From positions 1 to 64,000 of the forward strand of contig NZ_WMID02000016.1 of assembly GCF_009711165.2 (NCBI RefSeq): DNA of 64,000 nucleotides. Direction: 5' to 3'. The notes under the pieces are model-generated. The model did no database searches, was not told the origin of the DNA, and saw nothing but the letters and a program-made list of their open reading frames with translations. Shown here piece after piece: positions 43,811 through 63,158 of this stretch (its first letter is position 1; each line of letters opens with the position of its first letter). This DNA is from Flavobacterium sp. MC2016-06. Its GTDB lineage: Bacteria; Bacteroidota; Bacteroidia; Flavobacteriales; Flavobacteriaceae. Both the position numbers and the translations under genes were made by a program.

Positions 43811-43816
43811 GAAATT

Positions 43817-44014
43817 AAATTCCAATTTTAGAAATTCCAAATTCCAACCAAGGAATAGATATAAACAAAAAAATCCCAAATCTCAATCTATAAAATTGGA
43901 ATTTGGGATTTTTTTTATTGGAATTTCTCCAAATGATTCCTTAATTGGAATTTGGAATTTTTTTATTGGAATTTCCTCTATCGATTGGAATTTGGAATTT
44001 CTAAATTGGAATTT
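43817..44014. repeat. TTGGAATTT inverted repeat enclosing a terminator
   Basis: Arms 43817-43847 and 43985-44014 are complementary over 30 bases with one inserted base. Each is built of AAATTCCAA / TTGGAATTT units. A separate terminator hairpin (43868-43914) is nested inside, and a second TTGGAATTT run lies around 43918-43970. The whole convergent spacer is repeat. The same wording recurs before mraY (51055-51086). Confidence 0.85.
43868..43916. terminator. Bidirectional terminator gldC / engB
   Basis: A 14-bp perfect stem AAAAAATCCCAAAT / ATTTGGGATTTTTT with a 19-base loop; A-run and T-run on the two sides serve both convergent genes. Confidence 0.85.
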
Positions 44015-51030: not shown

Positions 51031-51092
51031 ATTTTTAAGTTCAAATACCACCAGAATTGGAATTTGGAGTTTCAAAATTGGAATTTAAAAAA
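51031..51092. repeat. TTGGAATTT-type repeat between murE and mraY
   Basis: The spacer holds AATTGGAATTTGGAGTTT and AAAATTGGAATTT, the same units as 43985-44014, plus a weakly complementary AAATTTTTAAGTTCAA on the left. No gene. It is the first spacer in the cluster that breaks the tight overlapping of genes. Confidence 0.65.
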
Positions 51093-51100
51093 TAGAAAAT

Positions 51101-52333
51101 ATGCTGTACTATTTATTTGAATATTTAGACAAAACATTAGACATACCAGGAACGGGAGTTTTTCAGTACATCACTTTTAGATCGGCTTTAGCATTTATGC
51201 TTTCGCTTCTTTTGTCAACTATTTACGGAAAAAGAATTATTAACTTTTTACGCAATCAGCAAGTTGGTGAAACCGTTCGTGAGTTAGGTTTAGCAGGTCA
51301 AAATGAAAAAGCAGGAACACCAACAATGGGTGGACTGATTATCATTTTTGCAACGCTTCTGCCAGTATTGTTATTTGCTCGTTTGCATAATATTTACATC
51401 GTATTGCTTATTGTAACTACGCTTTGGATGGGAACAATTGGTTTTGTAGATGATTATATTAAAATATTCAAAAAAGATAAACAAGGGCTTAAAGGAATTT
51501 TTAAAGTTATTGGTCAAGTTGGTTTAGGAATAATCGTAGGAACAGTTCTTTATTTTAATCCTGCTGTAACCGTGAGAACAGATACAGGTCGTACAGATAT
51601 TTTGAAAGCAGGAGTACATACAACAGTTGTTATGCCGGCTCCAGTTGAAGAAAAATCGACTGCAACAACAATTCCTTTCATTAAAAATAATGAATTTGAT
51701 TATGCAGAAATCTTGGCTTGGACAGGTGACGGATATGAAAAATGGGCTTGGTTAGTTTTTATTCCAGTTGTAATTTTTATTATCACAGCAGTTTCAAACG
51801 GAGCAAATCTAACAGATGGAATTGATGGACTCGCTGCGGGAACATCGGCAATTTCCGTCTTAGCACTCGGAATATTTACATTCCTTTCAGGGAATATTGT
51901 TTTTTCGAATTACCTAAACATTATGTATATCCCCAATTCGGGAGAAATGACGGTCTTTATATCCGCTTTTGTCGGAGCCTTGATTGGATTTCTTTGGTAT
52001 AATTCCTATCCCGCATCCGTTTTTATGGGAGACACAGGAAGTTTGACAATTGGAGGAATCATTGCAGTTTTAGCAATTGCAGTTCGTAAAGAAATCTTGA
52101 TTGTTTTGTTCTGTGGAATTTTCTTAGCAGAAAGTGCTTCGGTAGTAATACAAGTATTTTATTTTAAATATACAAAGAAACGTTTTGGCGAAGGACGAAG
52201 AATTTTCTTGATGGCGCCATTACATCATCATTATCAGAAAAAAGGATATCATGAAAGTAAAATCGTAACTCGATTTTGGATTGTAGCCATCATGTTAGCC
52301 ATATTATCAATCGTTACTTTAAAACTTAGATAA
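51101..52333 (+). CDS. mraY: Phospho-N-acetylmuramoyl-pentapeptide-transferase
   Basis: Makes lipid I by moving the MurNAc-pentapeptide phosphate onto undecaprenyl phosphate in the inner membrane. About ten helices are predicted. Active-site stretches: GTPTMGGL near residue 72, [17 protein letters not shown] (DDD-type acidic site), [20 protein letters not shown], and [13 protein letters not shown] (HHH motif). At 410 aa it is longer than E. coli MraY (360), because of an extra loop around residues 155-205 ([17 protein letters not shown]) between helices, a feature seen in Bacteroidota. It is followed after 5 bases by a 29-bp inverted-repeat arm. Confidence 0.95.
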
Positions 52334-52338
52334 GTTTA

Positions 52339-52798
52339 AATTAAAAATTGAGAATTAAAAATTAAAAGATTATACGTTCTTGTAGATGAAGGAGAATATT
52401 GTTCAGGAGAAATCATTTCTTTTTGCGGTTAGAATTATCAATTTGTACAAATATTTAACCACAGCTAAAAAGGAATTTGTTTTGAGTAAACAAATTTTAA
52501 GAAGTGGAACTTCAGTTGGAGCTAACATAGAAGAATCAATAGGAGGGCGTTCTGATAAAGAGTTTTTGTTCAAGCTTGAAATTTCATACAAAGAAGCAAG
52601 AGAAACTATTTATTGGTTGAAATTATTGAAAGCAACAGATTATATTTCTGTAAATGAATTTGAGAGCATCTATGGTGAAGCAGATGAAATTTGTAGAATA
52701 TTAGCGAAAATTATATTAACCCTAAAAGGAAAATAAGAAGATGATTAAAAATCTAGGATTCAAAATGATTTTTAATTTTTAATTCTCAATTTTTAATT
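52339..52798. mobile_element. Perfect 29-bp inverted repeat enclosing the four-helix-bundle gene
   Basis: Arms 52339-52367 and 52770-52798 are perfect reverse complements (core AAAAATTGAGAATTAAAAAT). They enclose only the 116-aa ORF at 52386-52736. The unit begins 6 bases after the mraY stop and ends 9 bases before the murD ATG, so it fills the spacer of an otherwise tightly packed cluster. Transcription through it would form a long hairpin in the dcw mRNA. Called a putative mobile unit on structure alone. Confidence 0.6.
52386..52736 (+). CDS. Four-helix-bundle protein (S23/IVP family)
   Basis: Matches the S23/23S rRNA intervening-sequence protein family (TIGR02436). Signature stretches: LRSGTSVGANIEESIGG, KEFLFKLEISYKEARETIYWLKLL, then EADEICRILAKIILTL. 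The fold is an antiparallel four-helix bundle that assembles into a pentamer; its biochemical role is unknown. In some bacteria the gene lies inside an intervening sequence of 23S rRNA framed by inverted repeats. Here no rRNA is near, yet the gene is again framed by a perfect inverted repeat, inserted into the dcw cluster. The start ATG is at 52386, 18 bases after the left arm. Confidence 0.9.
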   Translation: MKENIVQEKSFLFAVRIINLYKYLTTAKKEFVLSKQILRSGTSVGANIEESIGGRSDKEFLFKLEISYKEARETIYWLKLLKATDYISVNEFESIYGEADEICRILAKIILTLKGK

Positions 52799-52807
52799 AT
52801 AAAGAGT

Positions 52808-54139
52808 ATGAGATTAGTTGTTTTAGGAGGAGGAGAAAGCGGCGTAGGTACTGCTATTCTTGGAAAGAAAAAAGGATATGATGTTTTTGTATCGGATTTT
52901 GGAAAGATTAAAGAAAACTATAAAGAAGTTCTTATCATTAATAAAATTGCTTGGGAGGAAGAACAGCATACAGAAGACCTGATTTTAAATGCCGATGTGG
53001 TGATGAAAAGTCCAGGAATTCCAGAGAAATCTCCCATAGTAAAAAAGCTTGTTGCAGCAGGAATTAAAGTGATTTCTGAAATTGAGTTCGCAAAGCCTTT
53101 TACCGAAGCATTGACAATTGGGATTACCGGAAGTAATGGTAAAACAACAACAACAATGCTGACACATCACTTGCTGAAATCTGCAGGTTTAAATGTTGGG
53201 TTAGGAGGAAATATCGGAAAAAGTTTTGCCTGGCAGGTAGCAGAAAATAAGTTTGATGCTTACGTTTTGGAATTAAGTAGTTTTCAGCTGGACGGAATTA
53301 TAGATTACAGACCAGATATTGCCATAATAACTAATATTAGTCCTGATCATTTAGATCGATACGAATATAAATACCAGAATTATATCAATTCGAAGTTTCG
53401 AATTACAATGAACCAAACTGAAGACGATTATCTGATTTACGATGCAGACGATGAAGCGAGTGTAGAATGGTTAAAAAATAACAAAACAAAAGCAAAATTA
53501 ATTCCTTTTTCATTGACTCAAAGTTTTGACGAAGGAGCTTCTATAAATAACAACAAAATGGAAATAAAGATCAACCAAGAAGAGTTTACAATGGAAACAG
53601 AACACATTGCGTTAGAAGGAAAACATAACATGAAAAACGCAATGGCAGCAAGCTCAGTAGCGAAATTGATGCAAATTAGAAATGCAACAATACGCGAAAG
53701 TTTATCTAATTTTCAGGGTGTTGAACACCGTTTAGAAAAAGTATTAAAGATTCAGAATGTACAATACATCAACGATTCTAAAGCAACAAACGTAAACGCA
53801 ACTTTCTTTGCTTTGGACAGCATGAATGTGCCAACCGTTTGGATTGTTGGTGGTGTAGACAAAGGAAATGATTACAACGAATTAATGTCATTAGTTCGCG
53901 AAAAAGTAAAAGCAATTATCTGTTTAGGAGTAGATAATCGTAAAATCATCGACGCTTTTGGAAACGTCGTTGATATCATGGTTGAAGTCAACAATATGAG
54001 TGACGCTGTAAAAACAGCACAACGCTTAACAGAAAAAGGTGATGCTGTTTTATTGTCTCCAGCCTGCGCAAGTTTCGATTTATTTGAAAACTACGAAGAT
54101 CGCGGAAAGCAATTTAAACAAGCTGTTCATAATCTATAA
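52808..54139 (+). CDS. murD: UDP-MurNAc-L-Ala:D-glutamate ligase
   Basis: Adds D-Glu to UDP-MurNAc-L-alanine. N-terminal GGGESGVGTAIL (UDP site), ATP site ITGSNGKTTTT near residue 107, NISPDHLDR, GKHNMKNAMAAS, and the C-terminal LLSPACASFDLF. The 443-aa length is normal. The start ATG follows the right inverted-repeat arm by 9 bases. It is followed by the heptamer hairpin before ftsW. Confidence 0.95.
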   Translation: MRLVVLGGGESGVGTAILGKKKGYDVFVSDFGKIKENYKEVLIINKIAWEEEQHTEDLILNADVVMKSPGIPEKSPIVKKLVAAGIKVISEIEFAKPFTEALTIGITGSNGKTTTTMLTHHLLKSAGLNVGLGGNIGKSFAWQVAENKFDAYVLELSSFQLDGIIDYRPDIAIITNISPDHLDRYEYKYQNYINSKFRITMNQTEDDYLIYDADDEASVEWLKNNKTKAKLIPFSLTQSFDEGASINNNKMEIKINQEEFTMETEHIALEGKHNMKNAMAASSVAKLMQIRNATIRESLSNFQGVEHRLEKVLKIQNVQYINDSKATNVNATFFALDSMNVPTVWIVGGVDKGNDYNELMSLVREKVKAIICLGVDNRKIIDAFGNVVDIMVEVNNMSDAVKTAQRLTEKGDAVLLSPACASFDLFENYEDRGKQFKQAVHNL

Positions 54140-54143
54140 AAAA

Positions 54144-54191
54144 GTTTCAAGTTTCAGGTTTCACGTTATGTAGAAACTTGAAACCTGAAAC
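54144..54191. repeat. TTTCAAG/TTTCAGG heptamer hairpin
   Basis: Left half contains GTTTCAAGTTTC (54144-54155) then GTTTCAGGTTTC (54151-54162); right half contains GAAACTTGAAAC (54173-54184) then GAAACCTGAAAC (54180-54191). Each pairs with its partner over 12 bases, but the two pairings cannot coexist, so this RNA has two alternative hairpins. The units are the heptamer of the array at 1-77. Confidence 0.8.
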
Positions 54192-54214
54192 AAGAAAAAC
54201 CTGAAACTAAAAAC

Positions 54215-55525
54215 ATGAAGGAACTTGTAAACAAACTAAAAGGAGATAGAGTAATATGGTCATTCGTGGCTTTATTAGCGCTGTTTTCGTTTATGCCTGT
54301 TTTTAGTGCGAGTAGTAATTTGGCTTATATCGGTCACGGAACAGGAAATACATTGGGTTATTTGGTCAAACATTTGGCACATATTTGTATTGGTTTCTTG
54401 ATTATTTATTGGGTGCATAGAGTGCCGTATCATTATTTTAGAGCAATTTCAAAAATTGCACTTCCGGTGGTTTGGCTTTTATTGGCGTATACGCTTCTAA
54501 AAGGAACTGTAATAGCAGGAGCAAATGCAAGTCGTTGGATTCAAGTTCCATTTATCGGAATCACGTTTCAGACTTCAACATTAGCTTCTATTGTATTGTT
54601 TATTTATGTGGCGCGATATTTATCTAAAACAAAAGAAGAAAACGAACCCTTTCAAACGTCATTAATACAGCTTTGGGTTCCAGTTTTTATAACGTTAGCA
54701 CTTATTTTACCAGCCAACTTTTCGACCACAGCGTTGATTTTTGCAATGGTAATGATGTTGACTTTTATTGGTAAATATCCAATAAAATATATTGCATTTA
54801 TTATTGGTTCAGGAATCGCGATGTTGCTGTTTTTCCTTCTGATAGCAAAAGCATTTCCAGATTCGAGATTCTTTAGCAGGGTATCAACTTGGGAAAGCCG
54901 TATTATGAATTTTACAACGGATAAACCTGACGAAGATGATTATCAGATTGAGAAAGCTAAAATTGCTATTGCATCTGGTCAATTTGGCGGATTAGGACCA
55001 GGAAAAAGTGTTCAGAAAAACTTTTTACCACAATCGTCTTCCGATTTTATTTATGCCATAATTGTAGAAGAATATGGACTAGTAGGAGGCGTTGCAATAG
55101 TGATTTTGTATTTGTTATTATTGTTTCGATTTGTAATCGCTTCACATAAAGCCAATACATTATTTGGAAAATTAGTCGTCGTCGGACTTGGATTTCCAAT
55201 GATATTTCAAGCGATGATCAATATGGCGGTTGCAGTAGAATTGCTGCCCGTAACAGGACAAACTTTACCACTGATAAGTAGTGGAGGTAGTTCGATCTGG
55301 ATGACATGTTTCTCTCTTGGAATTATCATTAGCGTAACTAAAAAAGAAGAAGAAATCATAGAAGAGCAGCAAGAAAAAGAAAAACGAAAAGAAGCACTTC
55401 AACGATTAATAGATAAAGAATTAGCAGAAGAAGATCTTCCTGTTGATGAAGTTTATGAAGAAGAAGGAATGTATTCAATCCAAGATAATTCTAGGAATCC
55501 GATGAATGCAGTGTTGAATAAATAA
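54215..55525 (+). CDS. ftsW: Cell division protein FtsW (SEDS)
   Basis: Integral-membrane SEDS glycosyltransferase that polymerises septal peptidoglycan with FtsI. About ten helices; family signatures: GANASRWIQVPFIGITFQ near 105, GGLGPGKSVQKNFLPQSSSDFIYAIIVEEYGL near 270 (read in parts: PQSSSDFIYAII, EEYGLVGG) and the final PLISSGGSSIW. The C-terminal ~50 residues are acidic cytoplasmic tail with EEEIIEEQQEKEKRKE. Length 436 aa. It is after the heptamer hairpin and 44 bases before murG. Confidence 0.93.
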   Translation: MKELVNKLKGDRVIWSFVALLALFSFMPVFSASSNLAYIGHGTGNTLGYLVKHLAHICIGFLIIYWVHRVPYHYFRAISKIALPVVWLLLAYTLLKGTVIAGANASRWIQVPFIGITFQTSTLASIVLFIYVARYLSKTKEENEPFQTSLIQLWVPVFITLALILPANFSTTALIFAMVMMLTFIGKYPIKYIAFIIGSGIAMLLFFLLIAKAFPDSRFFSRVSTWESRIMNFTTDKPDEDDYQIEKAKIAIASGQFGGLGPGKSVQKNFLPQSSSDFIYAIIVEEYGLVGGVAIVILYLLLLFRFVIASHKANTLFGKLVVVGLGFPMIFQAMINMAVAVELLPVTGQTLPLISSGGSSIWMTCFSLGIIISVTKKEEEIIEEQQEKEKRKEALQRLIDKELAEEDLPVDEVYEEEGMYSIQDNSRNPMNAVLNK

Positions 55526-63077: not shown

Positions 63078-63094
63078 AATAAATTTTAGATATT

Positions 63095-63141
63095 AGAGTG
63101 TAGATTTTAGATTCCAATAAGTAATCTAAAATCTACACTCT
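63095..63141. repeat. Perfect 19-bp inverted repeat
   Basis: AGAGTGTAGATTTTAGATT (63095-63113) and its exact complement (63123-63141) with a 9-base loop. It is not followed by a T-run, so it is not a normal terminator, though it lies 17 bases after the YqeY stop. It belongs to the palindromic spacer class of this window. Confidence 0.85.
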
Positions 63142-63158
63142 GAAATCAGCAATTAACT

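Follow-up and report, generated by a model that had tools for sequence, protein, structure and literature searches.

Heptanucleotide repeats are known in bacteria as the STRR of cyanobacteria, and in MITE and REP-RAYT families a gene is framed by palindromes that also occur gene-less elsewhere. The DGR accessory protein Avd is a four-helix-bundle relative of S23, which is not known to be a nuclease. One report (PMC4990558) describes an intervening sequence (IVS) of 23S rRNA that ends in a stem of 28 bp, has heptameric repeats in tandem ahead of its S23 start and is cleaved by RNase III in vitro; it is thought not to express S23, and the copy is said to be decaying. Heptanucleotide repeats of the sequences GGGAATC in Xanthomonas and TAACTGA in Beggiatoaceae are treated in two further papers (PMC4692102, PMC4679880), the first of which gives 70 and 75 convergent inverted heptad pairs for two Xanthomonas genomes; neither main text contains the terms S23 or four helix. 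Among the matches listed by a literature search, with subscription journals and preprints outside its scope, nothing beyond PMC4990558 joined S23 to heptad repeats. The rRNA IVS and the heptanucleotide repeats are each already known; S23 genes with inverted heptads at operon junctions across phyla are, according to this search, new.

The window, which is the whole stretch of 64,000 nucleotides analysed here from Flavobacterium sp. MC2016-06, carries an S23 gene in a 474-nt spacer between mraY, which ends at 52333, and murD, which starts at 52808. The features of this junction and of the following one, between murD and ftsW, are:

52334..52807, + strand: whole element, from the mraY stop to the murD start, 474 nt
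52339..52367, + strand: left arm, 29 nt, made of words with a 7-bp period (AATTAAA AATTGAG AATTAAA AATTAAA A)
52386..52736, + strand: S23/IVP four-helix-bundle gene, 116 aa, in sense with mraY and murD
52770..52798, - strand: right arm, perfect reverse complement of the left arm
54140..54214, + strand: murD-ftsW spacer, gene-less palindrome of GTTTCAA/AACTTGA heptads

An earlier note on this DNA had described a perfect 29-bp inverted repeat around an ORF of the S23/IVP family, and this description is borne out. The arms (52339-52367 and 52770-52798) are 29 nt long, 100% complementary and separated by 402 nt, and the ORF at 52386-52736 matches PF05635 (E 1e-28; 100.1 bits against a curated cut-off of 33.8) and the TIGR02436 four helix bundle protein (111.2 bits against a cut-off of 24). 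The left arm begins 5 nt past the mraY stop and the right arm finishes 9 nt ahead of the murD start. The predicted RNA fold of the element region has the arms paired at -102.6 kcal/mol (z -3.8), and 0 of 100 shuffles were as low. No transposase or recombinase is present, S23 being the sole ORF of at least 80 aa between mraY and murD. The arm sequence has no further match in the window at up to 3 mismatches, and no Rfam family was matched in 51900-54400 at E values up to 0.1. A chance palindrome was ruled out, with 0 arm matches expected in 100 shuffles.

S23 copies from the mraY-murD site have a median dN/dS of 0.08, with 0.03 for the flank. These proteins are under purifying selection, and the protein therefore matters to something. 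Among solved structures the only match is 2rld_A (E 3e-34), itself an uncharacterised protein. Identity as an anti-phage defence system was set aside, as 0 families in PADLOC-DB match the S23 protein.

Avd works with a hairpin-bearing nucleic acid target, and by likeness S23 may do the same. The element also resembles MITE and REP-RAYT arrangements in that its S23 gene lies within palindromes of a kind found gene-less elsewhere, and is unlike them in that comparison of filled and empty junctions by eye revealed no target site duplication. The closest resemblance is to the 23S rRNA IVS. Both have a sense S23 ORF enclosed by terminal inverted repeats, about 28 bp long, that can form a stem, a length of about 430-470 nt and a sporadic presence at fixed sites (here 20 of 101 genomes filled); one described IVS shares the heptameric repeats, which there stand in tandem before the S23 start (PMC4990558). 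Unlike the rRNA IVS, the mraY-murD element is located between protein-coding cistrons rather than in rRNA and both of its arms are composed of heptads, and unlike the described rRNA copy, which is said to be decaying, its S23 gene is under purifying selection (PMC4990558).

By analogy with the rRNA IVS, the unit is best read as an S23-type intervening element that lives in mRNA and has a stem cut by RNase III, and we place the probability of this reading at roughly 0.6. The element fills the whole intercistronic junction and would be co-transcribed in sense with the operon, and its heptad arms can pair into a long stem, the loop of which would hold the S23 gene. RNase III would most likely cut this stem, as it does that of the rRNA IVS, and the cut would free the S23 message and leave the neighbouring cistrons as separate, still translatable messages. 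Insertion there would be tolerated in the same way as at the helix tips of rRNA. An S23 oligomer may bind the arms, and S23-aided copying into empty junctions may occur on long time scales.

A small, tight insertion in transcripts, together with hairpins, would also fit a retroelement-like system in which S23, as a relative of Avd, works with a reverse transcriptase in trans, and a hairpin beside the target is reported to be critical for DGR homing (PMC3240598). Unlike a DGR, the element has no reverse transcriptase beside it; the one RVT_1 of its own genome is on a different contig. RVT_1, the reverse transcriptase family searched, was found in only 49 of 101 genus genomes, against S23 in 141 of 150, and genome G008 has 4 S23 hits and no RVT_1. 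With RVT_1 not found in 52 of the 101, a reverse transcriptase in trans is unlikely to be required, and a retroelement-like origin of this kind appears very improbable.

The distribution of the element within the genus was examined using mraY, for which 385 of 398 genomes gave a match; the best 100 mraY-scoring regions and the window made up the 101 that were compared. The mraY-murD junction is filled in 20 and empty in 81, and in the empty form the stop and start codons are 0-3 nt apart, with a 1-nt overlap in L077. The earlier note's statement that mraY and murD are normally adjacent or nearly so agrees with these 81 tight junctions in the same genus, and the empty site it proposed to look for in related Flavobacterium is present in them, so that the ORF and arms are not carried by all relatives. 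Its further suggestion that gene and palindrome travel as one unit fits their absence from 81 of 101 sister genomes but does not extend to genome-wide hopping, of which this subfamily gives no sign. Two filled copies are shrunken with arm sequence remaining, L089 (270 nt) and L123 (162 nt), the S23 frame is broken or shortened in L102, L155, L170 and L174, and L082 is without the usual start codon. On a 101-tip tree of the mraY tail and murD, the filled or empty state changes at least 16 times.

The murD-ftsW spacer contains another S23 subfamily in 26 of the 101 genomes, mostly with TTTTAGA arms, and its proteins are about 33-43% identical to the S23 protein of the window. Most of the remaining 75 spacers hold a gene-less heptad palindrome of the GTTTCAA type. 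The state of this element changes at least 21 times on the tree of the mraY tail and murD. Both elements are found together in 7 genomes and neither is found in 62.

Other copies of the arm were also sought. The exact arm is found at 2 further places in the same genome, both lacking an S23 gene; the sequence thus recurs, contrary to one of the outcomes that the earlier note said would refute it, though not with the ORF. Allowing up to 3 mismatches, there are 10 arm places (the two element arms included) against 7 for a reversed control pattern, and in this AT-rich genome loose matches are therefore hardly above chance. In a repeat-family test, AATTNNNAATTNNNAATT gave 62 matches against 31 for the control. 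The arms of L181 match more than 30 times in three relatives, and a single place is often matched on both strands.

Several gene-less repeats were observed in passing. In L009 (about 1501-1529) and L011 (87-115) the exact arm has an imperfect inverted partner and no gene, and is situated in an apparent rRNA spacer between two tRNA genes, identities being assigned by eye; a palindrome resembling this one was seen, also by eye, just ahead of a 5S-like sequence. The window itself has several AATTCCA/TTGGAAT heptad inverted repeats within 200 nt at 43815-44014, with similar words at 51042-51093, and a TTTTAGA-like inverted repeat with 9 nt between its arms at 63082-63154, which resembles the murD-ftsW S23 arms of relatives. 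A tandem run of the heptad CAAGTTT occupies positions 1-77, at the start of the window.

Like the heptanucleotide repeats of other bacteria, the arms consist of 7-bp units that are intergenic and often beside start codons (PMC4692102, PMC4679880). Unlike those repeats, the inverted heptads here frame an S23 gene. The association was measured in 89 S23 loci of the genus, picked mostly by similarity to the protein of the window, of which 7 were without a usable ORF. Of the remaining 82, 65 have S23 framed by an ungapped inverted repeat scoring at least 15, a score that shuffled flanks reached once in 82. Identity within the arms is 0.72 at lag 7 and at lag 14 and 0.21-0.37 at other lags, and lag 7 is the best in 64 of 73 usable arms compared with 5 of 73 shuffled ones.

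The same structure is found beyond Flavobacterium. Of fifty named loci (L279-L328), 8 were left out for being at mraY-murD or coming from Flavobacterium or its relatives, and 1 for its short frame, which leaves 41. These 41, which include Saprospiraceae, Chitinophagaceae, Bacteroidales and MAGs of candidate phyla, have a frame scoring at least 13 in 33 cases (control 1 of 41), and lag 7 is the best in all 31 with usable arms. In five arms that contain neither AATTAC nor AATTAA, identity at lag 7 is still 0.80.

Inverted heptad frames mark S23 genes and not other genes. Frames scoring at least 15 surround 53 of 67 S23 genes and 0 of 55 other genes of the window, a comparison in which the mraY-murD site supplies 27 of the 72 named loci, so that neither side consists of independent cases. 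Among other ORFs in the named loci, 8 of 147 score at least 15; each of these 8 is itself an S23 gene at murD-ftsW, which brings the count for other ORFs not beside S23 to 0 of 139. For ORFs directly beside S23, 3 of 87 score. Heptads as direct repeats are not exclusive to S23, with a lag-7 stretch near 12 of 78 other ORFs.

A set of S23 genes chosen by best Pfam score, consisting of 28 of 30 phylum-wide loci with an ORF and 5 more copies from the genome of the window (33 in total), gave a frame of at least 13 in 16 (control 0) and of at least 15 in 10. Lag 7 is the best in 11 of the 16 framed cases and lag 8 in 3, and when stretches are used instead of frames, lag 7 is the best in 17 of 28 and lag 8 in 10 of 28. 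From this split, the length of the arm unit seems to go with the subfamily. The arms of the best-Pfam set are weaker, and many of them are degenerate. S23 arms with 8-bp rather than 7-bp units were seen in L348, L359 and L362. Compensatory change between the two arms was looked for at a variable position and was not found.

These comparisons bear on a reading in which the repeat family comes first, as REP- or MITE-like heptad palindromes, some of which have picked up an S23 gene as cargo. It would account for the gene-less heptad palindromes in most genomes without S23 at murD-ftsW and, by eye, in the rRNA spacers of the window's own genome, and for the many matches to the L181 arms in three relatives. 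It is opposed by the finding that inverted heptad frames accompany S23 genes and not other genes, and by the constancy of the gene family while the arm words vary between lineages. The shrunken L089 and L123 show, furthermore, a route from an element to a nearly gene-less palindrome. A primary palindrome family with captured S23 genes is thus considered improbable.

The context of the S23 genes was compared by junction, and most elements lie between cistrons and in sense. Clustering of 184 locus records by homology of both neighbours gave 68 junctions, which is an overcount where a neighbour is cut off or miscalled, and among the records some genomes occur under two ids (167 different proteins among 182). 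The target is accordingly not limited to rRNA, as had been proposed, and no rRNA was found at the 20 S23 loci scanned for it. Of the 63 junctions with both neighbours called, 49 have both genes running in the direction of S23; at 10 the upstream gene does so and the downstream gene is convergent; 2 are divergent and 2 antisense. Gene triples of the window fall into these classes 28, 11, 11 and 5 times out of 55. The upstream gene is co-directional at 59 of 63 junctions against 39 of 55 window triples (p 0.001), and divergent contexts number 2 of 63 against 11 of 55 (p 0.006), where the control is a single window and the junctions are not independent lineages. In the 82 genus loci the arms typically begin no more than a few nt from the upstream stop and finish no more than about 10 nt from the downstream start; there are exceptions, some of them of about 300 nt.

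Clades of S23 go with their junction. When the 20 junctions that have two or more members (135 records) are used as labels, the S23 tree, which has few columns and is weak at single forks, requires 21 label changes, where the minimum is 19 and the shuffled mean is 87. All 25 named loci that are at least 78% identical to the S23 of the window are between mraY and murD. Homologs of 65-75% identity from other orders are at different sites, where most have AATTACG or AATTAAA arms; L282 and L287 depart from this. These two MAG contigs, labelled Bdellovibrio and Lentimicrobium, have the order mraY-S23-murD with mraY 83-88% identical to that of the window, and are probably misbinned Flavobacteriaceae contigs. 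At another site, that of L179, G006 has an S23 element, G063 and G057 have other small ORFs (one of those in G057 resembles, by eye, a ParE-type toxin and has a partner), and G108 has no more than about 60 nt (L231, L232 and L236); this site is possibly a hot spot for small cassettes.

As all named loci of at least 78% identity are at mraY-murD and the exact arms elsewhere have no S23, movement within the genus is between alleles of one site, and ordinary recombination could bring it about. Divergence of the element is correlated with that of murD at the two sites (Spearman 0.75 and 0.79). In no more than 5 of 153 and 2 of 325 pairs is the element closer than all 444-nt segments of murD, and recent lateral gain is therefore uncommon. 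The low dS of the pair L116-L154 rests on few codons, L116 having an early stop, and its whole-element identity of 0.93 is unremarkable beside murD. Median dS for element and murD is 0.88 against 0.83 at one site and 0.85 against 0.91 at the other. The element and murD each reject the other's tree, but separate parts of murD also do this among themselves, and for this reason the incongruence is not taken as proof of homing; since murD itself recombines, the patchiness within the genus is explicable by ordinary recombination.

L109 and L110 are near-identical in the mraY tail and murD, and their differences cluster next to the two elements: at the first junction within 9 and 17 nt, at the second within 64 and 26 nt. 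In murD, a stretch of about 915 nt between the junctions has no difference, and three scattered ones are at murD 83, 155 and 353; in ftsW, differences resume from about 215 onwards. Elsewhere the two genomes (G063 and G006) are less alike, with identities of 92-93% for three S23 loci that both have and of 88-97% in the surroundings of two further sites. The pattern possibly reflects a recently imported segment that ended at the elements or left them out. Homing with co-conversion was considered for this pair and downgraded, given that the divergence of the genomes makes an element-skipping import equally explanatory.

An account resting on recombination alone would make the element an old resident of its junction, already there in an ancestor of the genus, where homologous recombination swaps filled and empty dcw alleles and S23 is a passenger or local regulator with no self-driven mobility today. 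The similar dS of element and murD, their correlated identity, the internal recombination of murD and the L109/L110 pair all fit it, as does L018, in which an S23 82% identical at the same junction accompanies an mraY 79% identical. What it leaves unexplained is the same anatomy at about 68 junctions and a similar anatomy at unrelated sites in other orders and phyla; spread to new junctions and phyla over a long time is harder to explain by allelic recombination alone. An old resident without mobility of its own is, on balance, rather unlikely. The other view is some form of homing, for which an association between the flank and the state of the element would speak; this was assessed in 84 of the 101 regions, 17 deep lineages being dropped. 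Within 20-30 nt it is seen for sp1 (z -2.3 and -2.2) and for sp2 on the murD side (z -5.7; -1.4, not significant, on the ftsW side), while other windows and off-site controls stay within about 1.8, values that are uncorrected for the number of windows. Selection on the start-codon context could be an alternative cause of this association.

S23 genes are also carried by plasmids. Of 27 plasmid or phage S23 hits, 14 records were examined and 11 have heptad inverted arms, in hosts that include Nostoc, Dolichospermum, Aulosira, Planktothrix and Chlorohelix, with arm words such as GTCGGAA, AATTCGT, AATTCAA and AATCGTA. Among the 14, heptad inverted arms were not found in Pseudanabaena, Monoglobus and one phage contig. 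The words vary, but a period of 7 bp is seen again in other Bacteroidota, in MAGs of candidate phyla and on plasmids of cyanobacteria. By annotation, 9 of 13 plasmid records have S23 in sense, 3 antisense to both neighbours and 1 divergent, a weaker bias than elsewhere.

A broader proposal, offered tentatively and with the odds somewhat against it, is that S23 genes and heptanucleotide repeats are halves of one multi-phylum class, in which an S23 oligomer would act on the arms as RNA, DNA or both, each lineage would home to one kind of junction, scattered heptads would be remains and the rRNA IVS would be one niche. Two puzzles, the role of the S23 protein of the rRNA IVS and the origin of heptanucleotide repeats in cyanobacteria, Bacteroidota and others, would then perhaps be one. 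If S23 elements populate operon junctions generally, they would form a compact and testable class of transcript-dwelling elements without a recognised nuclease, and would be hidden mRNA processing sites in essential operons such as dcw.

The plasmid S23 genes L331, L333, L335, L336, L337, L338 and L341 are located between genes that are annotated as defence genes or resemble them. The defence neighbours of plasmid S23 include cas2/cas1, csx2/cas1, helicase/methylase pairs, one of them annotated as DISARM DrmD and BREX PglX, and HsdS/HsdR.
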